Shown here: piece after piece, positions 3,769 through 64,000 of the stretch
How positions within the stretch are numbered: the stretch's first letter is position 1
Layout of the letters: the number at the start of each line of letters is the position of its first letter
Source: Branchiostoma floridae
Lineage: Eukaryota; Chordata; Leptocardii; Amphioxiformes; Branchiostomatidae
Reading direction: 5' to 3'
DNA: 64,000 nucleotides
NCBI RefSeq assembly: GCF_000003815.2
Contig: NC_049997.1
Location: 11,015,507-11,079,506, forward strand
Position numbers and translations under genes: made by a program
The notes under the pieces: generated by a model
The model's input: only the letters and a program-made list of their open reading frames with translations
What the model was told of the DNA's origin: nothing
The model's database searches: none

Positions 3769-4841
3769 CTAGGACAAATGCCCGGGGGAGCTTGCATCAC
3801 CCAAATTCCTGCCATTAAAATTCCTCCGGACTAACTTCTCATAATGCAAACATGCCTGTGCACTGGCGTTCCTGCGGAAAAATGCCTGTGCAATTCCTAG
3901 AATTTTTGCAGACTGAACACAATAATATACCATTTGGCTTGCCCCTAACTTGGGGCCTAAGGCGTCGCCAAAAAAGTACTAACCCATATTTCACCAGAAA
4001 CCTCACCTTTGACCCCTTTTCCCTCCTGATACAACCGGTTGCACCAGTTGACCCTATAACAACGTTTTAATGTAGTTTCTTCCTTTATTCCTTTATTTCT
4101 GCCGTTCCTTAGCTCTCTATCATCTCTAGAAGTAGGTAAGAATGATTTTATGGTGCTTTGTAACATCATAAATATACGTGTATTTGGACTTTCCAACTAC
4201 ATATATCTCAAAAACTCCTGGTGCGTCTAAGTTCTCTCAAATTTTATATGGTTTGTTACGAAAGTTGTTTACTTCGTTCAAGGAGGTGATATATTCGTTA
4301 TTGTGCCGTTTGTTATATTTCAACGAGTAAATACAAATGTCGTGATCATACTTTCAATGGGTCATTCAGAATTTTACTACATCTGTATTTAGTAATGAAA
4401 CTAATTTCCGCAGTGACAGACATGTAAGGAGGGGCTCCAAGCTCAATCCTTTTGGAAAGGTTGTAGACGTTAACCGCCGCGTTTGTCTCGAAAAAAAAAA
4501 ATCCTGTCTCATCGACTGTCTGTTCCAAAATCGAAGACGTCAGGCTTCATTGATTGTTCACGATTTGCAGATTGGCATACTTTTTTATGTGTTTCTAGTA
4601 GTATAGTTCACAGTCTGACTTTAGATTTACTGCACATGTGTACTTTCTAGGCATCATGTATTTATATTACATGTAGCATGATTAAATCGCACTTACAGTG
4701 GTGTGCCTAATATCTGCCAGCCCCAGAGAGTGAGCGGAGGAAGCAGTTTGGGACAGAGGACAAAAAAATTATTAACAAAATTTGAATCAGGTATGTTATG
4801 CCTGACAAATTATTGCTGCATTTTTAATTCCAGACATTGCC
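3769..4841. other. 5' flank of zinc-finger gene 1 (duplicated upstream of gene 2)
   Basis: No coding exon is seen. The segment from about 4095 to 4650 is a diverged copy of 10500-11290. Shared landmarks are TTTCTGCCGTTCCTTA, AAGTAGGTAAGAATGATTTT, CGTTATTGTGCCGTTT, GAGTAAATACAAATGT, AGACGTCAGGCTT and GTGTTTCTAGTAGTAT. The conserved AAGTAG|GTAAGAATG (4130 and 10533 regions) looks like a splice donor and could end an untranslated first exon. Confidence 0.55.
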
Positions 4842-5130
4842 ATGGACCTCTCCCGGGACATGACCTTTGCCTGTGACCCCCGACCCCTGGACCTGTCCCA
4901 GGACATGACCTTGTCCCCTGACCCCAGACCCCTGGATCTCTCCCAGGACACATTGGCCCCTGACCTACGACCCCTGGGTCTGTCCCAAGACACCTTGGCC
5001 CCTGACCTACGACCCCTGGGTCTGTCCCAAGACACCTTTGCCCCTGACCCCCGAGCCCTGGGTCTGCCTGAGGACATGACCTTGGCCCCTGACCCCCGAC
5101 CCCTGGGTCTGTCCCAGTACGTGACCTTGG
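4842..5130 (+). repeat. Coding tandem repeat, seven LSQD units (zinc-finger gene 1)
   Basis: Units of about 39-45 bp begin GACCTSTCCCAGGACATGAC or CTGGGTCTGTCCCAAGACAC. They translate to L(D/G)LSQD(M)TLAPD(P/L)RP. The paralogue at 11632 has only three. The last unit runs directly into the LPRLYMEEVVSELG module in both genes, so copies are gained or lost inside the array. Confidence 0.85.
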
Positions 5131-7672
5131 CGGTTCTCCCCAGACTGTACATGGAGGAAGTGGTGTCTGAACTGGGCAGGAGAAACATCAGCACTGGGGA
5201 CGTCAACAACAAGGAGCTGCTGGTGGCTGTGCTGAAGTTTGCCATGGAGAAGGAATACAGTGGGACGGAAAACATCCTGATGTCAAAGTCGAGTCAAGGT
5301 GTAATATTGTCAAGCCTTTTTTGTCCACAAAAAAATTCAACTGTTTCACTAGAAGAATTAAAACATAACATTTTCCTAATATACTTTCATTTTATTCGGT
5401 ATTATGTAACGGTCATATGTCTTCATTTGGGGTGCAAACATATAAAAGGAATGAACTTAGGTTCAAGCTCATATATCTTCAATATTTGAAACCTTTTTAC
5501 AGGACAAAAGACGACAGCAATGCTATGTGGAGNNNNNNNNNNNNNNNNNNNNNNNNNNNNNNNNNNNNNNNNNNNNNNNNNNNNNNNNNNNNNNNNNNNN
5601 NNNNNNNNNNNNNNNNNNNNNNNNNNNNNNNNAGACTGACTCTCATATCAGGTTCAGAATATGGTAAGACCACACAAACTTCATTGCATGTATAAAATCC
5701 AGTAAATATGATAGAATTTCAGTAGTAGTAGCAGTAACAGTAACAGTAGCATGTTTTGTATATTCTTCCTTTTCTGCCTTTGTGTAGGAAAATCAACGTC
5801 ACAATGCCAAGAGTCAGAAAACTCAGCACATTCTCCTGTTCCAAAGAGACAACCTGTCCAAAAATTGGCTGTGCCCATGACAGTGCCTGCACCAGAACAA
5901 CAATGGACTTCCCCTACCACAGCACCTGCACCTCTTCAACAGTGTACCATCCCTGCCGCGGTGTCTCCACCTGCCCAACACTGGGTCATGCCCACAAAAG
6001 CACCTGCACCTGTTAAGCAATGGACCACCCCTACCACAGCACCTGCACCTGATCAACAGTGTACAATCCCTGCCATGGTGTCTCCACCTGTCCAACAATG
6101 GCTCACAATAGCACCTGCACCTGTTAAACAATGGACCGCCCCTACCACAGCACCTGCACCTGATCAACAGTGTACAATCCCTGCCATGGTGTCTCCACCT
6201 GTCCAACAATGGCTCACGATAGCACCTGCACCTGTTAAACAATGGACCACCCCTACCACAGCACCTGCACCTGTACAACAGTGTACAATCCCTGCCATGG
6301 TGTCTCCACCTGTCCGAAAATGGGTCAAAATAGCACCTGCACCTGTTAAACAATGGACCACCCCTACCACAGCACCTACACCTGTCCAACAGTGTACAAT
6401 CCCTGCCATGATGTCTCCACCTGTCCAACAATGGCTCACAATAGCACCTGCACCTGTTAAACAATGGACCACAGCTCCACAGGTGAAAATAACGGTAAGT
6501 TAAAGCCTTAGAAAATCTGCTTTTTTCAAATGATTGCTACCTGGTAGTAACTGTAATACAACTTCTTTCAGTGCAAAACTTCAATACTCTGTTGATTAGT
6601 AATGTTTTCATTATTTTTTGCTTGGTCCCTTCAGGAACGAGCAAGCAAGCAACTGAAACAATGTCCTCACTGTGAGTATACATCACTGAATTCCTCCAAC
6701 TTCAGACATCATGCCCTTACACACTCCAACAAGAAACCATTCAAGTGTTCTCATTGTGACTTTGCAACAAAAACAAGACCCATGCTTCGTCAGCACATGC
6801 GAATCCACTCAGGAGAAAAACCCTTCAGTTGCAAGTCATGTGATTTCAAAACAGCACACAAAAAATCCTTACAGACCCACATGCAAACCCACACAGGAGA
6901 GAAGCCGTACATGTGTGAGGTGTGCGGACACAGGACAGCTCTGGCTGCGACTCTAAGAACACATATGAAGGTACACTCCAATTCCAAAGAACAAATCAAG
7001 TGTGACATCTGTGGATACGTGACAAAAAAGATGTCCCTTCTAGAGAGACACATGGAATTTACCCACACTAAGAAGCACAGGTGTGACTTTGAAGGATGCA
7101 ACTTCACAACAACAATACAAGTGGAATTTCAGGAGCATCAGAAAGAGAAACCATTTGCCTGTGACCAGTGTACTTACAAAAGCCACAGCAAGTCCAGCCT
7201 GATAACTCACATGAAAACTCACACGGGAGAAACCCCATGCCTGTGACCAGTGTGATTACAGGTCAGTGACTTCATACGAACTCTTCAAACACAAGGCTAC
7301 AAATCACAGAGAGAAATTCTGGCCATGTGACGTCTGTGGTCGCCAATGTTGTTCTGAAGCCCTTTTGGAGAGGCATAAAGAACGACACAGCTATGAGCAG
7401 GACAAGGGGCTCTATGTCTGCAAAGAATGCAACTACAGAGCATTTAGTTTTAAAGCATTGAAAGAGCACATATGAAAAGCCATATTGAAAAGCCATATGC
7501 CTGTGACAAGTGTGATTACAGAGCAGCTCTGCAACATACTATGAAGGTGCACATGAGGAGGAAACACAATACAGAAAAGCCATTCAAGTGTCCCCACTGT
7601 AACCATTGTACAAAGACAAAGGATGTTCTGAAATGCCTCATTAAAAATAGACATAAGGGTGAAATATCTTAA
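4842..7672 (+). CDS. C2H2 zinc-finger protein gene 1 (12 fingers), with two frame breaks
   Basis: Exons I can place: 4842-5298 (ATG in GCCATGG, donor GTGTAA, phase 1), 5503 into the N gap, the gap to 5663, 5788-6494 (donor GTAAGT) and 6635-7672. Phases agree at each joint. Exon 1 carries seven LSQD-type repeats (unit about 15 residues: L-x-LSQDMTLAPDPRP) then a helical module starting LYMEEVVSELGRRN. The 5788-6494 exon is a proline-rich array of about 37-residue units (APAPVKQW, APAPVQQC, SPPVQQW). The last exon holds 12 C2H2 fingers of the C-x2-C...H-x3-5-H type, the sixth of them degenerate. The finger frame is lost near 7223-7229, where the HTGEKP linker lacks one base, and again near 7468-7475 by two extra bases (ACATATG). 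Either this copy is decaying or the draft has errors. An AATAAA follows at 7734. It is presumably a nuclear DNA-binding protein. Confidence 0.75.
5533..5632. other. Assembly gap (100 N)
   Basis: A run of exactly 100 N lies inside zinc-finger gene 1. It removes the end of the exon starting at 5503 and the start of the exon ending at 5663. The two could be one exon. The round number suggests a gap of unknown real size. Confidence 0.99.
5860..6480 (+). repeat. Coding minisatellite, proline-rich array (about 111-bp unit)
   Basis: Five to six units have the core GCACCTGCACCTGTTAAACA...CCTACCACAGCACCTGCACC...CAGTGTACAATCCCTGCCATG...TCTCCACCTGTCCAACAATGG. The translated unit has three sub-blocks (APAP-QW, APAP-QC, SPP-QW), so the array probably grew from a shorter unit of about 12 residues. 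The reading frame is kept throughout, as are flanking splice sites. Confidence 0.85.
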
Positions 7673-7733
7673 ACACAGCATTGATAGGGGAGTTGTTTTG
7701 TCTTAAATGTTTTGTAATACGGGGTAAAGGAAA

Positions 7734-7739
7734 AATAAA
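7734..7739 (+). terminator. Polyadenylation signal AATAAA of zinc-finger gene 1
   Basis: A canonical AATAAA lies 62 bases after the TAA stop at 7670-7672, as expected for a short 3' UTR. Confidence 0.65.
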
Positions 7740-7740
7740 G

Positions 7741-8073
7741 ATGCAGTATTTGTTTTCCATCATTTGCTCTTTTCATAATCATATGAGTAAGGTGAGTGAA
7801 TGCTGTATCAGCTCACTCAGGTCAAGTAAAGGGACACCAATGATCTGATGATATCAAGTTAAATTTTGATTCTACATACAAGCTATGGATAGTTTGAGGA
7901 AGAAAATTGTAAGTTGTCTCCACCAGGCCTTACTCATGGGTTTTGATACCAGAATTCAGGAAAAATAACCTCATTATTTTTCATTACAATGCAAATGGGA
8001 TTGCAAAGAAGTCTTATTAGTATAATTTGTATCTTCAGATATTCTCCAGGAAGTTTTTCCTCATTTACTCTAA
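7741..8073. other. Intergenic sequence, nothing recognised
   Basis: AT-rich sequence between the end of zinc-finger gene 1 and the Harbinger-like element. I see no coding potential or repeat. Confidence 0.5.
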
Positions 8074-9629
8074 GGGACCGTACGGCGTTTAGTGAGGGGG
8101 GAGGGCCGGTCACCAGAGGGTCGGGTCAAAAATTTTTTGCAAGACCCTCCCCCAAGGTAAAAAATTTTTTGCTAGGCCCTCCCCCCAAGGCAATTCTTTT
8201 TTGCTTGGCCCTCCCCCTCCTAGCAACTTTGAAAAAAATATTCAAGACGCCAATAAAACACTGCGCTCCCATTTGGAAATATGCTTTGCGTCATACTTTT
8301 TCATGATTTTCATCGAGAAGCAGATCTCTCACCCCTAGTAAAAAAAGGAAAACAGAATGGCTCGAAATATCTGCTTAATAGAGGGATAAATATCTGCTTC
8401 ATAGAGGCATAAATATTTGCTTTATTGAAGCTATTTCATTGTTTTGATATTAAAACAATACCTACAAAGCATTTGTATCTGAATTTCTAGTAGATTTGCG
8501 CCACGAAGCGGCGCGCGCCCCGCTCCCTAAATTTACGTATTGCAAGCTCGCGGGCCTGAGCGGCTTGACGGAAACTATTTTTAATTTACATATATTTTGG
8601 ACTTTTTCTTGGTTCTGTGGTGGTAATAACTTACGGTAAATCGGGGGGAAAAATGAAAACCAAAACGACAGCACGATTCGACTACCAAAACTGTAGTGGG
8701 GAGGGGGGGCGCCGACGCGTGACGCTGATTTTCCCACGGCGGGGTAGACGGGTCGCCTCTCTCTAGCCGCCGGTGGGCGTGAGAACGCAGACTTGCAGGA
8801 GATATTTTACTAGTTTTAGAAATGACACGCTTTTTTTGCTACGATTTCCTGCATTGCTTTAAGTTTTTTTATGGGAAAATTTGCTGGTTAGATGACATTT
8901 CTATGAAAAAAAAAATACGAGGGTTTCAAGTTTTTGAGAACGACGTTCCGAACACCATGTCCGGCGCCAAAGCCACGAAGAATCGCAAGGTAGGTCCGGG
9001 AAAATTTTGAAATCTTGACCCTCTTAAAAGCTATTTTCTTCAGTTTAAAGGAAATATTTTGCTGACAAACAAAGCCAACTTTAATGGCATTTCAATTTAG
9101 AAATACAAAATTAAATCCCCCCAAACACATTATCACGATGTCGGTCACCAAAGGCGTGAGGCCGGACGCGTCAAAAGGGATCCAGGGAAATTTGCAAATA
9201 TTTACCCTCGAGCTCTGAAACGCCATTTCTTACATTTTGAGGGCATCAAGACAGTGGTAAATTTTGCTGGCAGACTAATCTAGAGTTTAATAACATTTCT
9301 GTAAGTGAAAAAGGTTTTCGAGGGCGTCATGCATAAGCCCCGCCCCCTCCCTTTCGCATTTTCACTGTGTCCCGAGCGCCAACCTTGGGTGATCCCTTGC
9401 AGAGGTCCAGAAAAGTTTTGAAATCTTGACCCTCTGAAACGCCGTTTCTTGGATTTTAAGGGACATATTTTGCTGGCAGACGAAGCTATTTTTTTTTTTT
9501 GCTTGGCCCTCCCACCAAGTCAATTTTTTTTTGCAAGGCCCTCCCCCTGGCAAAATATTTTTTTGTTTGCCCCCCCCCCCCCCCCCCTGGCGACCGGCCC
9601 TCCCCCTTCGCTAAATGCCGTACGGTCCC
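8074..9629. mobile_element. PIF/Harbinger-like non-autonomous DNA transposon (1.56 kb)
   Basis: The terminal inverted repeats begin GGGACCGTACGGCGTTTAGTG on the left and end as the complement (CACTAAATGCCGTACGGTCCC pattern) on the right. They are followed inwards by GGGGGAGGGCCGGTC and its complement, so the arms extend beyond 40 bp. The element is flanked by TAA on both sides (8071-8073 and 9630-9632), the trinucleotide duplication typical of PIF/Harbinger. The right third (9000-9500) contains three degenerate units of about 180 bp (AAATCTTGACCCTC...ATATTTTGCTGGCAGAC). Subterminal stretches are pyrimidine- and G-rich. No transposase or Myb-like frame is visible, so it depends on another copy. 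Confidence 0.8.
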
Positions 9630-9686
9630 TAATTTGCATAATTCATGTCTGAAGATATTCACCTTTTTGACCTACATGTGTGAATG

Positions 9687-9940
9687 AGCACGTCACCGGA
9701 ACGTACTGCGCCTGCGCGAAAAGTATAGACATGCTAAACCTTGCTAAACCCCCGGTTTACTAAAGGGCCGCATTTAAGAAAGTACGTGCGTATATAAGGG
9801 TAAAATCCCGTGTACGTTTTGCATGAAACCATGTCTCTAACATATACTGTGCAACAAGCGAGATTTCAATGCAACGTTGACCAAACCAAGCCCCAAAACA
9901 CCACGGTTCGCGCAGGCGCAGTACGTTCCGGTGACGTGCT
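9687..9940. mobile_element. 254-bp MITE with 9-bp target duplication (Mutator-like)
   Basis: The terminal inverted repeats are at least 34 bp and near perfect: AGCACGTCACCGGAACGTAC at the left end and its complement at the right, continuing inwards to TGCGCCTGCGCGAA. The nine bases GTGTGAATG flank both ends (9678-9686 and 9941-9949). A 9-bp duplication with long inverted repeats is the pattern of Mutator-like elements. The arms carry TGCGCCTGCGCG, which resembles an NRF1 site. Confidence 0.8.
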
Positions 9941-9949
9941 GTGTGAATG

Positions 9950-10499
9950 CATCATCTACCAGGTACCAGTGAGGAATGATGCAGTTTTCTCATTAATTAT
10001 GCAAATTAGGTCAGGATTAGCATTATTGACATCCGTTGATGTTCCTCTTGAACAATTTGCAATTGTCCAGAGTATGAAGTACCTGTTATTTAGAAATATA
10101 AATTTTCTTCATTTCTATGCGGGGGTCCCGTGCTCGAGGAGGTGCCTCGACCACGTTAAACAGCCTCATTACTCTTACTTGGGGTACCTACTGGCTGGCA
10201 AAATACACCAGATGATTATTATGCAAACCTAGTCCTAATTTGCATAATCAACATACCAGTTTGTTGGTCTCCATCAAATTTACATGTAGGTTAAAAAATC
10301 ATGAAAATTGAGAACCATTTATATAATACGTCAACCGGAAAATTTAACATCATTTTTGTCGAAGGTGAAGTTGGAAATTTCCTTCACACCCCTGAAACAT
10401 AGTGGTACAGCCCAGATCATATTGTTGACCTTTGCCCTCTGAGGCCGACATTTGTCTCGATCGTGGCCGTGGGAGCAGACGAAACAACGTTTCCCAGGT
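9950..10499. other. Intergenic sequence with an inverted pair of octamer-like motifs
   Basis: No gene is seen. TTAATTATGCAAATTAGGTCAGGATTAG near 9994 is matched in inverted orientation by CCTAGTCCTAATTTGCATAAT near 10227, so another small inverted-repeat element of about 255 bp is possible here. Confidence 0.4.
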
Positions 10500-11623
10500 A
10501 GTTTCTGCCGTTCCTTAACTTCCTATTATCTCTAAAAGTAGGTAAGAATGATTTTGTGGTGTTTTGCTAGAACATAAAGAAGTGAGTATTGGACTTTGCA
10601 ACTACATATCAAGAAAAATTGGTGGTGCCTTTTTTACGAAATTATGTGGGGAGGGGGGCGTTTGTTGTGAAAGTCGTTTAATTCGTTCAAGGAGATAATA
10701 AATTCGTTATTGTGCCGTTTCGTATAATTCAGGGAGTAAATACAAATGTTCTGATAATACTTGCGTCATATAATTTATGAATTCAACTATATCTATTAAT
10801 AAAATCAATTTCCACAGTGACACACGGATAATAAACTCACATCATAGGCCCAGGGCTGCCATCGACTGTGCCCCACTGTCAACCGACAGGAACCAAGGAC
10901 GTTATGATATAACGTCCTTGCAGGAACGGACTAACATGTCTGTACTCTCAGACTTACCTCGGTTTATCTCTAAACAGTATGCTCGTGCGGTTTTCACCAG
11001 TATCTTTACCAGAAATACACCGACACTTTGAAATAAATCACAACTGCGTATACCATTTTTTTTACTTCATCTAATAGTATGTTGTCACATAAAAGCAAAT
11101 ACGCACAGGAGTCTGCCTGTAGAAAAAAGATTTCGTGGCATCGACGGCTTGTTGTAAAAACAGAAGACGTCAGGCTTTACTGTCCAGAATTTACAGATTG
11201 GGATCCCTTTTCAATGTGTTTCTAGTAGTATTGACCTCAGAATATCTATCTATACTCCAAACTAGCATATGTACTTTCCAGACAGTAATACTTGGGCTTG
11301 GTTCAGTTCAATCCTCTTCTGTACCCAGTGGTACGTAAGGCTTCAGGAAGTTCTTCCATCATTGTCTGTCAGCAGCAACTCTGTGGGGCCCCATCCAATG
11401 AGAAACCCCATTTCTTCACCTCCTTCTCTATGCAGCGCTTAGCTTGGTAGCCTGACTGAATCATGCCTACAGCTGCCTGCTCAACATCTGCCGTCCCCCT
11501 AGAGGATGAGGGTAGGGGCCAGTTTACAGCCTGGGAGAGCAGAGTTTGCAATTTTTAAATACACAGACTATGGTAAAGCTTATATGTTATTGACTGACAT
11601 TGTTGCTGCATTTTCAATTCCAG
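10500..11623 (+). repeat. Duplicated 5' flank of zinc-finger gene 2
   Basis: This is collinear with 4095-4830 upstream of gene 1, including the pyrimidine tract and acceptor (TTGCTGCATTTT.AATTCCAG) before the first coding exon. The shared flank shows that the two genes arose by tandem duplication of a unit including their upstream region. The possible untranslated-exon donor AAAGTAG|GTAAGAATG is kept near 10533. A self-complementary GGACGTTATGATATAACGTCC sits near 10897. Confidence 0.6.
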
Positions 11624-11631
11624 ACATAGCC

Positions 11632-14519
11632 ATGGCCCTCTCCCAGGACATGACCTTGACCCCTGACCCCCAACCCCTGGCTCTGTCCCAGGATGTGACC
11701 TTGACCCCTGACCCCCGACCCCTGGGCCTGTCTCAGGACGTGACCTTGGCGGTTCTCCCCAGACTGTACATGGAGGAAGTGGTGTCTGAACTGGGCAGGA
11801 GAAACATCAGCACCGGGGACGTCAACAACAAGGAGCTGCTGGTGGCTGTGCTGAGGGTTGTCATGGAGAAGGAATACAGCGGGACGGGAGGGTCGTCAGG
11901 GCAACCCAATGTCACAGACACACACACTTACGTAACGAGTAACGGTGCAACTGAAATCTGCTTCAGTTTCGAGCCAGAAGACTCACACACTGACTCTGAA
12001 GATGGCATCAACAGTAGTAGATTACAGGAGAACAAAGATGCTGAAACCGAAGCTTCTTCTACTGTGGTCATATCTTACACAGAGGAAGATAGGCCACATG
12101 AGGTATCTAACACCGAGGTAGTCTTAGCCACGGATGCAACTCCAGCTTTCAGTCCATCCACCAATATTAATGAGACAAATGACAGAGGAACGATGGAAGA
12201 TGAAGTTATTGAAGGAGTGAGAGAAGGAAGAGAAGAATCAGTAGAAGAACAGGCCAGATTAACCTCAGAAGTAGTAGAGAATGACTCTATGGACCAGACT
12301 GATACAGTGTCATATGCAGAAGTTGACTTAACCTGCACTTCTGTTGCAGAAATGGTAGTTTGGTTGCCAGGGCAACAAGGGAACAATGGAGCGCAAACTG
12401 TACAGGTGAGTACAGTATATATTGGCTTCTGTTGGTCAATATTGATGAAGATAAACTCATATTTCATATCAGCCCTACAACATTGGCTATGGCAGTTCTA
12501 CATGTATATGAGAATGACAGTCTCTGCCACATGTTTGTTGCAAATTTCGTTCTGTGGATCCATTTTTCTTCTGCACTACACATCTGTCTACTTTCTCCTA
12601 ATTTTAGTTGGTTGAACAGTGTTCATCTAGATTTCTCTTACTGGAATGGTCATTAATTATAAGTAACTTAAAGTATGTAATTAAGTCCTACCAAAGAAAT
12701 GTGGAAATGTACTCGGTACAAATAGCAGGAAATGTGCATAAAAAATCCATAATTTGTTTTCTGAAGAAAGATATGGAATGTGAATATTTTTTGTAAATGT
12801 AGATATTCTTCCTAACAATTTTTTGTGAAATATTGAATTTGCGGTGTCTGCCAATTTGATGATCAATAAATTTGTTAGTGCACATATGGGATATATCATT
12901 CCAAGAGGGTTGAAATCATTTATCTATTTCATTTTAAGACAGGCAGGTTGGTGACTCCTTCAACTTTTGAAAGTTCATTTCCAAATGGACCCACCGTATA
13001 TGTTTAATCAACTTAAAAGGACAAGACTAAGGCATGATCTAGACACGGTTTTTCCCGATATCGGCGAGCCAACAACCTCTCGCCGACAGCTTTTTTTCAG
13101 CATCTAGATGGAACTGCAATATCGCCATAAAGATATCGGCAGAATTTCTCCCGAAAGGTCTGGACCATTCACCCGATAGGTTAGCAGGGGTCCCCGATAG
13201 CTTGGCAGGGGTCCCCGACAGTTTTCGCACGCATGTAGATGTGTCCCGACTTCGGGAGGGCTCATTAGCATATAACGCGGGCTCATTAGGCTATATAGCT
13301 GTTTATGACTGCAAGTGCCACGGGTGTCCCGCGGCCAACGTTCCAGATCCCTTCCGACGTCTCCACAGATATCAGCAAAAACTGTGTCTAGATGGGGCCT
13401 AACAAAGATTTGTCAAATTATTTTTTACAGTTTGCTGAGGAGGAGTCAAGTGGTGAGAAGAAATCCTACAAGTGTTCTCTCTGCGACTACACAACCCGTT
13501 ACGCTTCAAACCTAACGAGGCACAACCAAGTGCACTCTGGGGACAGGCCCTTCAAATGTGCCCACTGTGACTACGCAGGGGGGTCCAAAAAAGCCCTGAA
13601 GCAGCACATGTCCCGCCACACTGGTGAGAAACCACTGGGGTGTAAAGAGTGTGGGTTCAGGACGGCCTACAGGACAGCGTTAGACTATCACCTGAAGACT
13701 CACACTGGGCACAAACCCTTCATGTGCGACAAGTGCGGGCACCGCTCTGCCAACAAAGCCAGCTGGCGAACACACATGAAAACTCACACCAAGGTGCCTC
13801 TCAGGTGTGAAAGTTGCGGGTACACCGCATCCAAACCCTCATACCTTGCTGCACACTTGAGGACTCACGACGAAGAGAAACTGCTGAAGTGTCCAGACTG
13901 TGACCACGAGGCCGTGGGAAGAAGGGAACTCCAACTCCACATGAGGACCCATTCTGGGGAGAAGCTGTTTGCCTGTGAGAGGTGCCCGTACAAGTCTCGC
14001 TACAAGTCTGGCCTGACAAACCATCTCAAGACACACACGGGGGAGAAACCGCACAAATGTGAGCAGTGTGGTTACAGGGCGGCACAGAAGGCAACCTTAT
14101 ACAGACACATGAGAACCCACACAGGAGAGAAACCCTATCCATGTACAGTATGTGGTCGCAGCTGTGCTACTCAATATCTTCTTCAAACCCACATGAAGTC
14201 CCATCAACCCAAAGGCCCGCTGGTGTGTAAAGACTGTAACTACAGGACCATGCACAAGGCAGACATGAACCGGCACATCAGAACCCACACAGGGGAGAAA
14301 CCCTACAGCTGTGAGGAGTGTGATTACAGGGCGACTAACAAGTCAGCTCTGGTGTTCCACACCAGGATACACAAAGGGGAGAAACCCTTCAGATGTCAGC
14401 TTTGTGACTACGCAGCAGTGAGGAAAGACTTGTTAACTGCACATTTACGGAGACATGCAAAGACTTTAACTTACCACCAGTGCTCTGCCATACATGTAGA
14501 GTGCGTGCATGGTAAGTGA
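11632..14519 (+). CDS. C2H2 zinc-finger protein gene 2 (12 fingers), intact
   Basis: Two exons: 11632-12405 (258 codons, donor CAG|GTGAGT, phase 0) and 13431-14519 (acceptor TTTTTTACAG, phase 0), giving 620 aa. The start ATG lies eight bases after an acceptor in GCCATGG context, so an untranslated exon should lie upstream. Exon 1 encodes three LSQD repeats, the LYMEEVVSELGRRNISTG helical module, then a long acidic Ser/Thr/Glu-rich region, a likely disordered transactivation or interaction segment. Exon 2 encodes 12 consecutive C2H2 fingers at about residues 273-600, from CSLCDYTTRYASNLTRH to CQLCDYAAVRKDLLTAHLRRH, joined mostly by TGEKP-type linkers. All cysteine and histidine ligands are present. 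The KRAB, SCAN, BTB and ZAD domains are absent. The likely role is sequence-specific DNA binding in the nucleus; targets are unknown. It is the intact paralogue of gene 1. Confidence 0.85.
12406..13038. other. First part of the zinc-finger gene 2 intron
   Basis: AT-rich intron sequence. I see nothing coding. In-frame read-through from exon 1 gives an apparent extension to 12615 that passes the GTGAGT donor and is not part of the protein. Confidence 0.5.
13039..13391. mobile_element. Inverted-repeat MITE just upstream of the finger exon of gene 2
   Basis: The left end is CTAGACACGGTTTTTCCCGATATC and the right end its complement (GATATCAGCAAAAACTGTGTCTAG) with few mismatches, 353 bp in all. 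It ends 40 bp before the finger-exon start at 13431, so it contributes sequence next to the branch point region. The interior has two copies of CAGGGGTCCCCGA. No convincing target duplication was read. Confidence 0.65.
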
Positions 14520-14554: not shown

Positions 14555-14848
14555 TCCTGGCTGTTGCTTAGACTCAGTTGCAGTCTTCGAATCTGGGTTC
14601 GCGATCTTCAACGTTAGCTGGGTTCTCTTGTGCCGGGAAGGGGAGTTTGCCGAGGAAGGGAGTATGCTGTGAAAGGGGTTTCGGGACGGGGCAAAATCGC
14701 TATCACGGCAAACTTTCATAGCATACTCCCTTCCTCGGCAAACTCCCTTTCCCGGCATAAGAGAACCCAGCCAACGTTGAAACTCGCGAACTCCCCCAAT
14801 AAAAACCAGCCTCGTTCGAAGACTGCAACGGAGTCTAGCTGTTGCTAG
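14555..14848. mobile_element. Long-hairpin MITE after zinc-finger gene 2
   Basis: The two halves are nearly complementary over more than 100 bp. Landmarks on the left (GACTCAGTTGCAGTCTTCGAA, GCTGGGTTCTCTT, GGGAGTTTGCCGAGGAAGGG) recur inverted on the right. The loop lies near 14690-14705. No coding content. Confidence 0.75.
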
Positions 14849-16720: not shown

Positions 16721-19700
16721 CTGGAGAAGGGAATTAGAAGATGTCAGTACAACAGAAATACATGACGGTCACACCATAAAACTTTTTAAAAGTCTTTATA
16801 CCTCCCCTCACATTAGGCGAAAATCGGTCGGACGACGAGTCTGCGAGCTCTAAATTACGAGGAGGCATGACCCTGCTGCCGACGAAGAAATGGCAGAGTT
16901 CCCCCCTTCCCGTCAGGGTCATGCCTCCTTGTGATTTAGAGCTCGCAGATTCGTCGTCCGACCGATTTTCGCCTAGTGTGAGGGGGGTATTAGAAATACT
17001 TCTGTATGTAAAGAAAATGTTAGGTATCTCGGGTATTACTGTCACGAATATCTTTCACATATTAAGTATCTTGTGTTTGCTTGCTTCTGTTGGATGTTGA
17101 ATACAAACATGTACTTCCCTCATCGTCACAAGTATCTGAAGCCTGGGTACCATCTGGGAAGTAGTTCGCTTCGGCATTTATTATATACTACAGGGCTCTA
17201 TAGCCAGCATCCGTTTTCCCGTCAATTGACGGAAATTTGCTGCGTGTGACGGAAAAATGTTAAAACCAATCCGTCAACCTTGCCGGACAAAAATCCTTGG
17301 TGGAAGCTACAGACGGTTTGGGGACGCCGTCCACGGCTGTAAAAGCCACACACTGTTTGATTTGCTATTGTTATTATTGTTGACGAAGTGTGTCGGCGGC
17401 CTTTTGCATACAATAATCTCATTAAAAACCCGTTTTCAAGGTCTCAGTTCAGTTTCTGTAACTCCTGGAATAGTGTTTTTGTCACAATGGGAATTGGCTG
17501 ACGGAAAAAAATTTCGAGCTGGCTAGAGCCCTGCTTGGATGTTGTGTCTTGCTGAGCTACCTTTTCTCTCAGTGTTACAAAGTCTTGTCTTACCTTTCCT
17601 ATGACATCATTTTTCTTGAGAGTGTCCTTGTCCATGACTGAGATGATGAAGCTGGTTTCCTTCATCTTGTCCATGGGGATGTCGAAGATGAAGGACTCGT
17701 TAAAGACGGGATTCAAGCAGCGCTTCTTACAAGACGTCTTCTTCTTCTCAATCTTCTTTTCTCTGTAGACTAGCCAGATCTTCACATAGGGGTCTGTAGG
17801 GGGGGAAAACAAAGGTAAATTTCGGCTGTCTCCAACAATTGAATATTTACATAACAAAGTACTGTCAATGTTTTGACCAAATTTACAAACATTTGATCTT
17901 GTCCAGTACTAGAGAACTGAACTATATTCAGTTCAAGATTAACTTAAACAAAAATTCTAAACAATAGGAAATCCTAAAAAAAGTTCAACAAACAACGGCG
18001 AGGTCTTCCAACATTGGTCGCTTAGATTTATCTGGAACAATATTTTCCTGATTTTACAATGTCACATTTTACAAAGAAAAGATTATGCATTCCTTGATTT
18101 ATCAGCTTTTTTTCTGTCAAATATACATATTACATAGACTATACATTGTACATGTGGTACATGAAACATTGTATTCAACAACAAAATCTGTTGGAAATTT
18201 CAAATATAGAACTGTTCACAAAAGAAACCTCCAAAGTGAGAAGAGCTGCACTGTACAAGCATTGATGATGCTGACCTGATGTGCCTGTGATGTCCATAGC
18301 CTTGAGATGTCTGGCCTTCATCACCACGATGGTGATACGCTGGGCTGTGGGCTGGTAGCACAGGGATACCAGCAGCTCCCCCAGGTTATCCTGAATGGAA
18401 TTGCAGCAGGTTAGAAAAACTCACAGTTCCTTTTAAATCAAGACTTATGATTGAATTACCAGGAATAGTTTGAAAACTTTGTTACCTTCACCAAGACTAT
18501 GTTTTGGGGCTGTGTTTGAAAAGTTCTCAACGCGAATAGCCATTTTCGTGGCTTTCCCGTAGACCGCGAGAAGCCACGTACGGGGCTTCGTACGTCACGT
18601 TTTGGATTTTGAACTCCCTGCCCACCATCATGACGAATCCCACAACTAGAACGCTGGTAATTGTAAGAGAACCAATCAATCAGAAAACATACAGCATTTT
18701 GACTTCATTCAAACCTTATGTGAACGTAATCCAGACGCTAGATTATCATGAGTGCTTCAGGGGCCTCGTCTGCCGATAATGAAGATTTAGTGGAGGCTCC
18801 CACCAGCGGGGAAAGGGAGGAACAACAAGGTAAACAACGGGGTTTTTTTGTGGAATATGTGCTGATGTCTCTTCATGCCAGGTTTGCGGTTTCGTACTGC
18901 TAATATCTAGCTGCATTTTACAGGTTTGCGATAGCGTAACCTGAAGGTTTTACAGGCTTGCGATAACAAACCTTTTTTTTTCAAATTTTTTTTTTTAGAT
19001 ATTGTCAGAGCTTGTAGTTATACTTATGTGAACATATAAATGAAAGTGGTCGGAAGTTGTACTATTTTTTAAATAATATTACTACAATTTTTCCTCAACA
19101 AAACAACAATTTCACATGATAATACAACAATACATTGGTCAACAACAAAACATGTGATTATTATAAACTATATTTTGGTTTTCTCCCCAGCATCCAGCAG
19201 TGACAACACCGATGAAGATGATGAGCAGTGTGAAGATGTTTGATGCCCATCACATAATACCAGCATTGCTCTTGTATTATAAATGTATTTGTGTAGTTTC
19301 AGGATAAATAAAGTATTTTTTTGCCCCTGAATGGACTTTTTATTTTGTGAGACATGTTTTTGTTTTGTTTTGCATATTTTTTTTTTGTTTATTGTTATTA
19401 CTATTACTACTATCAGATTTATGGTATGATGTTTATTTTGCTTTTATTGGAAAGGCCAGTCTGTGAGCTTTCCAGAAATATATAGTTTTCCTAGTCTACT
19501 CCTTACATAGCAGCTGTAATAATAATTAACAAAAAGTACTAATTGACACCTGTATAGACTGAAATTATATGTCGTATATGGTATACAGGAAAAAATTTTA
19601 TGACGTGCTGAGAGGGTTAAGTCTTTATGATATTTGGTATGATGAAAGGCGTTCCCAAAATGAAGACATGATTTAATTCTGGCCTCCTGGCAGATTTTCA

Positions 19701-22700
19701 TAGTACCGCAGCAGGACTTTGGTTTTCGACTTGGTTTTGGTATCTTGTGTGCTGGACATGCTGTATGGCCTTGTTGTAAATTCAACTGAGGGGCAACGAA
19801 AATGATAGGTGGAGGTAAAATCTGTCTGGCGCGATTTTCTGACTGTTACTTACAGTCCAGTCCAGTTATGCAGAAAAAAGCATTTTGAGTCCTTGCAATG
19901 TTGGCACATCTATTCCACTCAAAAGGGAAAGTACAACTTACATTTGAGTTGGGGCATGGTCTGAGGTCCTTCCAGAATGTGGGAGACTCTGTCAGGTCCA
20001 CCTCACACAGTGGTAAATGAACCTCCCCTATGGGATCATTCCTACTGAAGCGGTCGTAGTCAAACACTTGTAGGTACAACACTCTGTGTTGGAGCTTGTC
20101 ATACGGAAAACCTGGAGAACAATAGAAAGTATTATCTGAATGTCATAAATATTAGTTGACAATGTCATTATAGTATGAATCTGACCAGGCCCTGTATTTG
20201 AACCAGTATTAGGAATTTTTGGAACCTCTGCAGTGTTGGACAAGTTGTAAAAAAAACACTTAAAGCAAGGGCAGTACAAGTGTACATAAAATGATAAATG
20301 GTCTCCTGGCTCATACAGCTATGCACTGGCCCAAATTGAAAAGACACATTTCTATGCATTTTTACTAGCAACGAGGAAAATCTTTTGTTTTCAGTAAAGA
20401 AAGCACTTGAATATTTATCTAGTACAGATATGGGTCGAGACTCTTCCAGCTAAACTGTACATATTTTCTCCTATATCTATCTATTTAATATATAGAGAGA
20501 GATATATAATTATATATATATGTGTAGATATATATATTAACTACAGCCTTTTGCTGTCTTCATCATAAGGGTAAAATTCACAAGTTATGCTTTTGTCTTG
20601 GATGCTCCTTCAAAGTAATCCCGGAAGACGTACAATGTATATCACAGTACATGTACGTACCTTCAAACTGGAAGGTCTCGTTCCAGTGTGGGTTGAGATT
20701 CCGTCTCTTGACTTTGGTCTCCATCTTGTTCTTCTTGTCAGGCAAGAGGCAGATTTTCACAAAGGGATCGCTTGTGCCGCTGAAGTCCTGGAAGATTACG
20801 TAACAGAACAGTTGACTACAGAGCACCGTATGGTTGTCATGACTTTCTGGAGCATAAATCTACTATTGGCCACAACAACTAACCTTTATATAGTACACAG
20901 ATACAAATATCTGTGAGTGAGTGCATTTTCTAATTTTTGCCATCCATAGTTAGTGAGACCTTACGATAATAGAATGTCTTGGTCTGTTGTGTGTAAAACT
21001 CCATAAAATACCAAATTGAATGTAAAATTTGCAGAATCTCAAAATGCAGAATGAAATAATTTCATTGATGGTAAAACATCTTGTGAGGATACTTGGTCCC
21101 AACATTATATCAACTGCATATTGCTAGAAACAGAAAAGAAGAGCTTTTCATAATAACACCATGCTTGACTATACAGTAGCCTGGATAACATACCCCAACC
21201 TCAAAAATATCTTTTGTGTTGCGGTCTGGGAACATGGCTGTAGAAATGTTCTCGAAGGCCCTTGATCAGAGGGCGGAGAACCTAAGATTTATGACCACTC
21301 ACACCACAGGTAGCCAGCTACAACACACCACAGTTGGTCAGTAGGCTATCACAGTAGCGAATCAGGTACTAAGTGGCCACTGTTATGGATTCAAAAAATA
21401 CAGTTGGGGGTCTTTAACCAATCATGGCAGGGGTGTAATGACCTCCTGCTGATCCTGCTGATCCTACTGCTGTTCTATTGGTGGTGTTTTTTGCCCACTA
21501 TAAGGTGCAAAATTGAGAAGAGTTCCTATCCCATCAGGCCAGACCCAAGCACGATAGATACTTGAGATCGGGCTGGGGTTTGGTAACCAGGCTAACTATA
21601 CAGATGACCTCAATGAAATTTTGCAGGCCGATTTGAGCTTTCATGAATAAACAAACTTTAAGGTTCAAACAAATTTACAAACAGATAGAATGTTGTGCCC
21701 ACCTTTGCTGGCAGCTCCACCGCTCTCTTGATGTGCAGCACCAGAGTCATGGTGTCAAAGTTGTAAGACATGCTGAACTGGATCCTGCCCAGGTTAGCTC
21801 CCGGCTCGCTCACGGCTTCCTCGTTACTGTCGCTGCCTTCATCATCGTGGGACTGGAGAGGACAAGCAGACAGGAGACTTCTGATCAATACTTCAAATTC
21901 AGCAACCATGGTGCTATTTTTAATATACTTGTGGCATAAGACGCGGCGTAACGGGTTCAGAACTAATACTGTAAGTTCATTTATGTTCGCGAGCACTTAA
22001 TTTTGCGAGTTTGAGCAAATCGGGAGTTCGCGAGATCTTTGAGTTCGCGAGTGGGTGTTTCAATTATTTTTCGAAAGTTACGTTACGATCCGGTAGCGAG
22101 TGCCCCCCTCCCACCCACACCGCAACACTAGTCATGCCGTCAAAGGCGGCATTTACGCCTTAGGGTTCATAGTTCCCCTTCAAACAATGTCTAAAGTTGG
22201 TGTACTCAATAAAAAATGTGTTTCTACCGAGCCACTGTCTCATTGTTTAGCTCATTTCGGCCGTGATTTGACGACAGCGCACGGAACGCAACGGGGTCAA
22301 TGACCTCTGTTATGTCGCAATCACATTTGCCGCATAGGCTGACGGGATACCCCACGCCAAGCCAAGCGACGCGGGCGCCATTTTGAAATTTTTTTAGCGT
22401 GAAAGACGGCGCTAAGTTTTAAACTTTCAGCGTAATTTGTGGACACAAGTTGTACACAAGAAGGTGAAGAGTTTATCTCTCCCATATTTACAGTAGTTCT
22501 AACTCAGAATTATGAAACGGACGTCTTATATTCGGCATGTAAGCGGAGTGAAGTTGTGTTTGCCACGTTTCTGATAAAAAAGTAAATATTCCCCGGCTGT
22601 TATTGTTGTAAACCTGCTGCAATTCCATAGCCTTCCTTGTATTTGTAAAGACCAGTACTACTCAGTTTTATTTTTTTGTTTCGTTCGTAACTTGTAGAAA

Positions 22701-25700: not shown

Positions 25701-28700
25701 CCATTTTACAGGGTAAACAGGGAAATGCTTGTGAAGGTGTCACAGCAAAAACCACAAATATATAAAACCACCACAAATATTTCTACTTTTACAGAAACTT
25801 GAGTAAGTTGCATAGACAAGCACAGACCAGAAGACATAAATGAAACTTTTATATACTGGCAAGATGGCCATTTTACAGGGTTTAACAAGGAAATGCTTGT
25901 GCTGATTTTAAGTTCCCGATGAAGACGTCACAGCAAAAACCATGAATATATAAAACCACCACAAACATTTCCACTTTTCCAGTAAGTTGCACAGATGAGC
26001 ACAGACCAGAAGACAGAGTAAATGATAAATGAAACTTTTATATGCCGTTTTATAGGGTTTAACAAGGAAATGTTAATGTGCACCATAAAGTAAATTTAAG
26101 TTACTCAAGCAACTGGATATGGTTTTGGAAACGGTCAGACGTTTCGGATAGAATCCACTATCCTTTGTCAGTGACACTAAAGTGATCTGGAAGAAACAGG
26201 TCTTTTATACTCTTAAACTATGAATGAAGACAATTTCAGATGCCCAATAGGAAACGTTGTTAGACAATTCAGACAGAAGACAATTTGGATTCCAAAGAAA
26301 ACAAAGGTAAGGCAAAATGCTAATGTGCTGATTTTAAGTTCCTTATGAATACGGCACAGCAAAAACCACAAAATAAACCACCACAGACATTTCCACTTTT
26401 CCAGTATAAAGTTGCACAGACAAGCACAGACCAGAAGACAGAAAGTGTGACCTACTGAGGGAGAGAGTCGGAGGCTGAGTGACGGCATGGAGGAAGCGGA
26501 CAGGTTGTGCAGCGAGAAGGGATGGACCTTGAGCGACGTCCCGTTTTCCGCTGATTCCTCCTCGTGCCCGTCTGCGTTCGGCTGGACGTTCCCGCGAAGC
26601 ATCGCCTTTCCTGGAGGTCGCTCAAACCTGCAGGGGATGGGGAAAAATGTCAGTCTTATTAGATGTCATAGAAAATAGCTGAATACTTGTTATAAGTGGT
26701 TTTGTGGTTGCTGTTATCATTTGTAATACAAATCTCTGTGATTATGTTTTATCAATGTGGCAATACACGTAGAATTGTAGATTTGGTTGTTACAATAATT
26801 ATATTTCAGCCATACATAGTATGGTGAAATATATTGTATTCGTAATGTTTCTTTCTTTCTTTCTTTCTTTCTCCTGTCAAATCTTCAAAGTGATTCATCT
26901 CCGCCGTTCTTGGACCGAATGACCTGAAATTTGGCACAGGGGTAGAATGGGCCAATACCTTAATGCTTTTTTCTCAGTTTTTTCATATCTGTCTCTAAAA
27001 TGATTTTATTGAGATTTTTTGGTCAATTTTAGACCAAAACCGTATATTTTGGCCCCTGTACCCTGGTATTACAACCAAATGAGCTGACATTTGACAGAGA
27101 TGTGCCTTGATAATGCTCCCATATAAATTCGATAACACTTTTGGTGTACAGTACAACAAAATGCTTATTTTTGCGATTTTTTGACCAATTTTTGACCAAA
27201 AAAGGACACTTTTGGCCCCTGTACCCTGGTATTACAACCAAATGAGCTGAAATTTGACAGAGATGTGCCTTGATAATGCCGTCATATAAATTCAATAACA
27301 CTTTTGGTGTACAGTACAACAAAATGCTTATTTTTGCGATTTTTTGACCAATTTTTGACCAAAAAAGGACACTTTTGGCTCCTGTACCTTGGTATTGCAA
27401 CCGAATGAGCTGAAATTTGACGCAGATGTGCCTTGATAATCCCTTCATATAAATTCAATAACACTTTTGGTGCACAGTGCAACAAAATGCTTATTTTTGC
27501 GATTTTTGGCCAATTTTTGACCAAAAAAGGACACTTTTGGCTCCTGTACCCTGGTATTACAATTAAATGACCTGAAATTTGGTATAGATAGGCATTAGAT
27601 ACTTGGTAACAAGATTCAAGTAAAATTTTTGACATAAACAACTTTAAAATGATTAATTTTGGCACTTTTCTGAGGGGAAATTTGTTTTCTTTTGGCCTCC
27701 TGACGTGACCTTCCGTGACCCCGCACAGAGCCACACCTGTGCGCATCAGCCGGAGAGTTAATTGAATCAAAGACCTAGCCAATCAGCGAAGAGGAGGCCA
27801 AAGGCTAATTAATATTCATAAGCGGGGCCTCATGATCCCGTATATAGCAGTGTTCCCGCCAGGGGGAGCGAAGCCCGCCTAAGGCTCTCGCATTTTAGAC
27901 TATTCAGAAGGCTTTATATTGTATCAGTTCTTAGGGGCATATTTATGATAATCGCAGCAGTCACTTAACTTCTCTTCAGGAGTTTAGCGTAACACTATTT
28001 CAGGTCAAACCGTCAAAGGCAACTAAAAACAAACTTTGACGTTACTGAGTTCAACAGTACTTATAACTTGTTATCAGAAGTTGAAACGCTAGCGATGGTA
28101 TTTTCGCTGCGGTGTTAGCTCCGTGCGACTGTTGTTGACGGTCTTATAACGGTATATTTTGCACCCCTGTACCCTGGTATGAGTAACATTTGGTATAGAT
28201 AGGCATAAGATAGTTGGTAAAATGATCCAAGTAAAATTTTTGGCATAAAGTACTGTAAAAGGCTTAATTACAGCACTTTTTTTCGGGGAAATTGGTTTTC
28301 TTTCGTTCTCCATGCCATGACCTTTCGGACGTTCACCCCACAGAGCCGACATCTGCACCTGCGTCTAGCCGGCAGGAAGAGTTAATTCAATTAATGGTTC
28401 AGCCAATCAGCGAAAAGGAAAGCGAAGGCTAATTAATATTCATAAGCGGGACCACACAATACGTTAACTTGAAGACTCAGGCCGTACAGACTTCTCGCCA
28501 GGATTTTTTCAAAGCGTCGGACAGGGGTCCGGGGGCCGCCGAATGTCCCTGGCGGGGTCCAGGGCAGGGCCACTGTGGGGGGGACCCAGGTGGGCGAAGC
28601 CCCCCCGGAAGCTCTTGCATTTTAGAATATTGAGAAGGCTTCTTTTATCAGTTTTTTTAGGGCCATATCTACGATAATCGTAGTAGTCACTTACTTCTCT

Positions 28701-60566: not shown

Positions 60567-64000
<3,434 letters not shown>

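Follow-up and report, generated by a model that had tools for sequence, protein, structure and literature searches.

Two zinc-finger genes in the window

The window analysed here is the whole stretch C19:11015507-11079506 (64,000 nucleotides) of the Branchiostoma floridae genome (513,431,437 bases in 431 contigs). It carries, on the forward strand, two neighbouring C2H2 zinc-finger genes, termed gene 1 and gene 2, which share an N-terminal module of 49 residues that recurs at many other loci of the genome. Positions are those of the window unless a contig is named, and the splice sites in both genes were placed by eye and are putative. An earlier note on the two genes had described in both an LSQD/PDPRP repeat array, a common N-terminal module and 12 C2H2 fingers. 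The arrays were recovered by Tandem Repeats Finder (TRF) and the module was located at 5121-5267 and 11740-11886 (+), with 46 of 49 residues identical; the finger count holds for gene 2, which has 12 in one frame, and fails for gene 1, where nine patterns are spread over three pieces in two frames. Two open frames, of 375 and 370 codons, are longer than any in 60 simulated 64-kb sequences (second-order Markov model, largest 220). The two genes are composed as follows.

4096-4421 (+): gene 1, block ahead of the gene that recurs at gene 2, with a putative donor of a 5' exon at 4136, placed by eye (blastn, alignment)
4842-5120 (+): gene 1, start codon and minisatellite-coded LSQD/PDPRP array, 42-45 bp unit (TRF, reading frames)
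5121-5267 (+): gene 1, N-terminal module, 49 residues (alignment, genome search)
5533-5632 (no strand): assembly gap of 100 N inside gene 1 (blastn run)
5788-6494 (+): gene 1, Pro/Thr-rich linker exon built of 111-bp minisatellite units, splice sites putative and placed by eye (TRF)
6635-7672 (+): gene 1, zinc-finger exon, broken (open frames, finger patterns)
10502-10825 (+): gene 2, counterpart of the block ahead of gene 1, with a putative donor of a 5' exon at 10542, placed by eye (blastn, alignment)
11632-11739 (+): gene 2, start codon and LSQD/PDPRP array (TRF, reading frames)
11740-11886 (+): gene 2, N-terminal module, 49 residues (alignment, genome search)
11887-12405 (+): gene 2, acidic linker of 173 residues, net charge -30, and exon end, donor GTGAGT at 12406 (sequence reading, charge count)
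13431-14519 (+): gene 2, zinc-finger exon with 12 canonical C2H2 fingers, in phase 0 with the preceding exon (Pfam, finger patterns)

Gene 2 (11632-14519, +) opens with an ATG at 11632 directly behind a splice-acceptor-like site and has a predicted length of 620 residues, the module ending mid-exon. Its 12 fingers lie in one frame, are joined by HTGEKP-type linkers and match the C2H2 zinc-finger family (PF00096, E=7.7e-44); as read from the DNA, gene 2 is an intact 12-finger gene. Its intron also holds, 30 bp before the finger exon, an element resembling a miniature inverted-repeat transposable element (13030-13400) with 33-nt inverted ends that are 82% complementary and a possible TAA target duplication, the latter noted by eye.

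Gene 1 has a longer LSQD/PDPRP array than gene 2, both being minisatellite-coded, and its module ends near a putative donor. The finger exon runs in a first frame up to a stop at 7244-7246, in a second frame over 7215-7472 and in the first frame again to 7672; the nine canonical C2H2 patterns fall into three pieces (6+2+1), fingers 6 and 12 lack full ligands, and a frame change falls within finger 10. Gene 1 as assembled is not an intact 12-finger gene; what the assembly shows is a decaying or mis-assembled copy. That the gene is in truth intact, its frameshifts being assembly errors beside the gap, would fit with the 100-N gap within it, with the mutual cancelling of the two frameshifts and with the cysteines and histidines that the shifted stretch retains. 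However, fingers 6 and 12 have lost ligands too, which the intact paralogue L047 (see below) retains, and we regard an intact gene 1 as less likely than not.

A family of module-bearing zinc-finger genes

The module search covered this one animal genome, and the E-values quoted are the search tool's own statistics. It returned 90 matches, 57 of them at E<=0.001 and 74 at E<=0.01, and the module as an accident of two genes is rejected by this number. Contig C19, which makes up 3.3% of the genome, holds 51 of the 74 matches at E<=0.01, 33 of these within C19:3.35-3.66 Mb, while C15 holds nine (tallied per contig from a hand-copied match list). Thirty-three other module loci, labelled with L numbers and hand-picked from the 90 for spread rather than drawn at random, comprise 26 with C2H2 fingers downstream on the module strand, two first open reading frames (ORF1s) of long interspersed nuclear elements (LINEs) and five with neither. 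The module letters were read directly at the first 16 loci. At eight of these, fingers follow within 1.6 kb in the same open frame as the module; three have them farther downstream (L029 via L046, L033 via L048 and L042 via L053), one is a LINE (L040) and four are finger-less. Among the second 17, 15 show at least one finger within 1.2 kb on the module strand, one is a LINE ORF1 (L070) and one, L069, shows no finger. The same downstream-finger pattern was seen in none of 160 one-strand 1.2-kb stretches of the window (15001-64000), a control shorter than some of the loci, which were read over up to 5 kb.

By DNA position, many paralogues therefore join the module to C2H2 arrays (26/33 loci). 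The proposal of the earlier note that the module defines a zinc-finger family is supported by these 26 loci and the 74 matches at E<=0.01; the module corresponds to no known Pfam domain that could be found and, with 90 matches, is not limited to the two genes. It marks one family among several: no module (tblastn E<=0.5) was found in 20 ten-kb regions, with 32 finger frames, around high-scoring fingers elsewhere in the genome, nor in eight 3-kb loci, and the module as a marker of all zinc-finger clusters is rejected. The finger genes of these regions have short leaders, often beginning MAT.

In most members of the family, an N-terminal module of roughly 45 residues leads into an extended linker, generally acidic, and then into an array of C2H2 fingers. 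The module consensus is S-x-EVTLAVLPRL-x-MEEL-x2-EL-x-RRNI...L-x3-LR-x-VM-x2-EY, with 11 invariant positions in an 18-row alignment. Across the family the median proportion of differing synonymous sites (pS) is 0.67 and of non-synonymous sites (pN) 0.33. Of 153 pairs, 152 have a lower pN than pS, the exception being an identical pair, and the pairs are not independent of one another. The invariant positions and the excess of pS over pN indicate that the module behaves as a constrained protein domain.

Among the finger-less loci, L037, L043 and L069 (C5, C8) have acidic linkers, with VKKE/IKTE motifs in L037 and L043, and no fingers in the fetched stretch; these loci may lack fingers or have them in distant exons. 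At L044, read together with L049, the module is followed by a very long, repetitive Gln/Asn/Ser-rich open frame (1128 residues), again with no fingers in the fetched stretch.

Structural affinities of the module

The module has no Pfam, NCBIfam or clear PDB match. In agreement with the earlier note, the N-terminal pieces gave no match to KRAB, SCAN, BTB or ZAD in Pfam-A up to E=10, a range limited by the HMMER filters, which drop most matches above about 0.1; these four identities are ruled out on that search. The faint SAP likeness that the note had also remarked on finds support of borderline strength. A first test with a single module was weak (4.4 bits against a five-sequence SAP profile, 29 of 1849 shuffles scoring at least as high), and the family alignment then gave a better result. 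A profile of the 18 rows, searched against 177,635 distinct PDB sequences, has a sole match at E<=10, the SAP domain of 1zrj (E=0.031), and hhalign against a profile of five SAP sequences scores 23.8, above all 300 column shuffles (maximum 18.8). The module resembles SAP domains (1zrj, Tho1, MKL1) in length, in the pattern RL-x-EL-x-EL-RR and in two predicted helices, which an AlphaFold model computed without relatives places at residues 11-20 and 30-47 with weak confidence (predicted local distance difference test, pLDDT, of 61.5). It differs from them in not being reached by Pfam SAP, in an extra EVTLAVLP prefix and in a terminal EY.

These observations suggest that the module is probably a divergent helix-loop-helix that is SAP-like rather than SAP. 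An alternative is that it is a plain SAP domain whose sequence has diverged too far for profiles to detect, so that the family would consist of SAP-zinc-finger proteins acting on AT-rich or scaffold DNA, with no new domain involved. The family profile's match to 1zrj, the hhalign score above the shuffles, the common RL-x-EL-x-EL-RR pattern and, weakly, the single-module score are all consistent with it. On the other side, Pfam reports SAP for none of the 18 members, the significance of the match is borderline, the conserved EVTLAVLP prefix and terminal EY fall outside the stretch matched to 1zrj, and the modelled structure is of weak confidence. We give a true SAP domain appreciable weight, though clearly less than an even chance, and retain the SAP-like description. 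Scans of viral and prokaryote sequences with a single module gave 112 and 596 pattern matches, respectively, none confirmed as a relative, and Rfam and tRNA scans led to nothing useful.

A LINE that carries a similar module

At L040 (C10:13439190) an open frame of 497 residues comprises the module followed by a GDSL hydrolase match (PF13472, E=1.1e-5; 26.5 bits, below the Pfam cut-off of 32.9). In the adjoining L045, Pfam matches an endonuclease (PF03372, E=4.3e-12) and, further, a reverse transcriptase (PF00078, E=3.4e-33). L040 and L045 together (C10:13439190-13444790) have the order of a LINE with an SGNH/GDSL ORF1 ahead of endonuclease and reverse transcriptase. Three full-length copies of this ORF1, two on C10 and one on C2, have the module close to the N-terminus; they are 99-100% identical, which suggests recent activity of this LINE. 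A second ORF1 pair (C12 and C13) is 32% identical over residues 17-438; there the presence of the module follows from genome-search positions, and a GDS/GTN hydrolase signature was recognised by eye in one of the two (L070). Four further matches of 40-48% identity span the ORF1 N-terminus (C11, C5, C9 and C3). A reverse search from the LINE ORF1 reaches the finger-less module locus L043 (C8) at E=3.9e-6 and finger-bearing loci from E=2.9e-5 (L056, C19:3613462), and adding L040 to the alignment leaves all 11 invariant columns intact.

LINE ORF1s with 50-55% identity to L040 match it only beyond its N-terminus, starting at residue 157 or later, which suggests, short of proof, that the module may be an addition to this LINE. 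With a similar module at the head of ORF1 in an esterase-bearing LINE, an exchange between retrotransposon and host zinc-finger genes, in either direction, is probable. One direction in particular, in which the N-terminus of an esterase-type ORF1 was taken up by a zinc-finger gene that later gave rise to many copies, would accord with the position of the module in the three near-identical copies and the C12/C13 pair, with the four 40-48% matches that cover the N-terminus and with the precedent of SCAN described in PMC4592553. The 50-55% relatives point the other way, the module is far more numerous at non-LINE loci, and a tree puts L040 on a long branch with weak support (84/70); we consider a LINE origin of the module unlikely.

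A survey of Jockey-superfamily ORF1s reports esterase ORF1s in two vertebrate groups only, and the term SAP does not occur in its main text (PMC4120745). A lancelet esterase LINE would extend the range of esterase ORF1s beyond the two groups named there.

Relationship of the two genes and of their cluster

The window pair belongs to a five-copy tandem cluster at C19:10.98-11.03 Mb, with three more module copies 26-35 kb upstream of the window start (C19:10980199, 10984702 and 10988999). In the genome search two of these encode the same 50 residues as the gene 2 module and the third is 98% identical. Between the modules of genes 1 and 2 there are two synonymous differences (in 35.5 sites) and three non-synonymous ones (in 111.5 sites). 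Other parts of the two genes are less alike: the upstream blocks are 78% identical over 315 ungapped bases, a non-coding difference of about 0.25 per site, the LSQD/PDPRP arrays have a synonymous difference of 0.28, and the finger exons are synonymously saturated (pS of 0.86 and 0.72 in two blocks). The tract of near-identity stops at the module end. In Fisher tests the synonymous sites of the module differ from the upstream block (p=0.025) and from the first finger block (p=3e-19), while the difference from the array is not significant (p=0.069). A similar arrangement holds within the cluster. The gene 2 module differs from that of the upstream paralogue L029 by a single synonymous change (1/36 sites), while the gene 2 fingers are saturated relative to paralogues L046 and L047 (pS of 0.82 and 0.86). 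L047, the finger array behind the copy at C19:10988999, is intact, with 12 fingers, and has 84% DNA identity to the gene 1 finger exon.

The finger arrays of genes 1 and 2 align one to one (diagonal score of 643 against a permutation mean of 469; 0 of 20,000 permutations as high), and this ordered alignment indicates that both descend from a single array. Most simply, the duplication is old and the module exon has been homogenised recently, by copying or gene conversion. The earlier note had observed near-identical modules beside diverged fingers, as these counts bear out, and had offered gene conversion or selection on the module as the cause. Recent copying or conversion is the simpler of the two, since only 2 of 35.5 synonymous sites differ, and selection is not needed for the likeness of the two copies; as sole cause it is rejected by the synonymous site counts and the saturated fingers. 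Selection on the protein sequence in place of recent copying, for which one could cite the constraint on the module across the whole family and the non-significant excess over the array (p=0.069), is very improbable given two synonymous differences beside saturated finger exons, one such difference from L029 beside fingers saturated relative to L046 and L047, and two other cluster copies that encode the same 50 residues as gene 2, with a third at 98%.

The note's further suggestion, divergence in DNA specificity, survives in a weaker form. Base-contacting finger positions (-1, 2, 3 and 6, in what we take to be the usual numbering) are identical at 10 of 44 sites against 37 of 88 at other positions (p=0.034). 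The count covers 11 finger pairs, finger 12 being dropped as the gene 1 copy departs from the standard pattern. Because gene 1 is broken, this divergence is weak evidence for selected change.

Linkers and proposed mode of action

Net charge is negative in 12 of 14 linkers. They contain 18 psi-K-x-E/D motifs, which we take to be of the SUMO type, against 4.5 expected and with none of 2000 shuffles as high, in a count that is not independent as the linkers are related.

The best explanation of the whole is a tandem cluster within a family of zinc-finger genes defined by a SAP-like module, in which fingers select targets, repression is linked to SUMO and the module has been exchanged with a LINE; we put its probability at roughly 0.6. 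The fingers would give each paralogue its own DNA target, and the module, as a SAP-like two-helix domain, would supply a common effector, chromatin tether or partner contact. The acidic linkers, many with SUMO-type motifs, point to a possible SUMO-linked repression. The family would then act in the manner of KRAB, FiNZ or ZAD zinc-finger proteins, and its targets would probably be transposable elements, which the analogy with FiNZ and KRAB makes plausible.

Several points weigh against this account. The search concerns a single species, and the 33 loci are a hand-picked sample. At the second 17 loci the downstream stretch alone was fetched and the module rests on the genome search, where four matches exceed E=0.01 (0.054, 0.19, 0.21 and 4.77). 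Two of these weak loci, L067 and L068, are counted among the finger-bearing 26, L068 on a single finger with a module match of E=4.77; the other two are L069 and L070. L032, L037, L043 and L044 have no fingers in the further 2-3 kb, and L069 none in the 1.2 kb, to which their finger-less calls apply. LINE modules score weakly in the forward genome search (E=0.21-0.33). Two of the 14 linkers are basic, five, gene 2's included, lack a psi-K-x-E/D motif, and in five, where no finger was seen, "linker" denotes the rest of the open frame; the kinship of the linkers likewise limits the motif count. With regard to the SAP likeness, the single-module score was low, Pfam searches of the 18 modules gave noise-level matches among which SAP does not figure up to E=10, the AlphaFold model is of low confidence, and Foldseek on this weak model returned nothing at E<=0.001, the Tho1 SAP domain ranking third at E=2.4.

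A bolder proposal is that the SAP-like module, exchanged between the esterase-type LINE and the zinc-finger family, now serves both parties in a conflict between transposon and host. Through it, the zinc-finger proteins may reach the same partner or ribonucleoprotein as the LINE ORF1 protein. We hold this proposal tentatively, as somewhat unlikely.

Other features of the window

Three more inverted-repeat elements lie around the genes, at 8073-9630, at 9687-9940 (perfect 34-nt ends and, by eye, a 9-bp flanking duplication) and at 14597-14791 (79-nt arms, 92% complementary). A synaptotagmin-7-like C2 exon occupies 17447-17908 (-) (PF00168, E=1.8e-19; best PDB match 6ank, E=7.7e-41), with another C2 exon at 19849-20142 (-). 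The frame at 61550-61885 (+), presumably akin to the WW domain of an ARHGAP39-type protein, has no Pfam match at E<=0.01. A 10-bp minisatellite, CGAAAAGGAA, is present in 29 copies at 1099-1405 and is open in several frames on both strands. Two frames at 27282-27782 and 30554-30976 (-), near-identical by eye, represent a repeat interspersed within the window.

Comparison with known zinc-finger families

KRAB and ZAD families combine an N-terminal effector module with tandem fingers, clustered genes and diverging fingers. The present family resembles them in its N-terminal module and tandem fingers, in clustering and in finger divergence, and differs in that its module matches neither KRAB nor ZAD in Pfam up to E=10. 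The genome's other C2H2 clusters are likewise large tandem arrays, and are set apart by short leaders and by the absence of a detected module around the 32 finger frames searched. FiNZ of cyprinid fish, as characterised in PMC10547256, is a 28-residue acidic sequence with no known-domain match and hundreds of paralogues. The two share a short N-terminal sequence that corresponds to no known domain, a large number of paralogues, an acidic character and, in the window genes, an N-terminal exon apart from the finger exon. In contrast, a single open frame spans module, linker and fingers in eight or more members of the present family, a distinction drawn from the description of FiNZ rather than from its sequences. 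Transposon repression has been tested for FiNZ (same text), whereas the present family is known from DNA alone. SCAN resembles the gag of a Gypsy-type long terminal repeat element and is reported to derive from a Gmr1-like gag (PMC4592553). As with SCAN, a module is common to a retroelement protein and zinc-finger genes; the element is an esterase-type LINE ORF1 here instead of a Gypsy-type gag, and the module has no SCAN match.

Zinc-finger expansions in Branchiostoma floridae are noted in PMC12513265 and PMC5588721, and zinc-finger terms do not occur in PMC12373286. In the openly licensed PMC literature covered, no description of the module was recognised. Zinc-finger families that have an N-terminal domain of their own are a known kind; the present domain and its LINE connection appear undescribed in the literature covered.

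With the module, an invertebrate chordate would have a zinc-finger family defined by its own N-terminal domain, in the group in which to ask what preceded KRAB zinc-finger repression. Its presence in a LINE ORF1 makes the link between zinc fingers and transposons directly testable and would provide a second case, after SCAN, of a domain common to a retroelement and zinc-finger genes. If true, the exchange would be a counterpart, outside the vertebrates, of SCAN and KRAB evolution.

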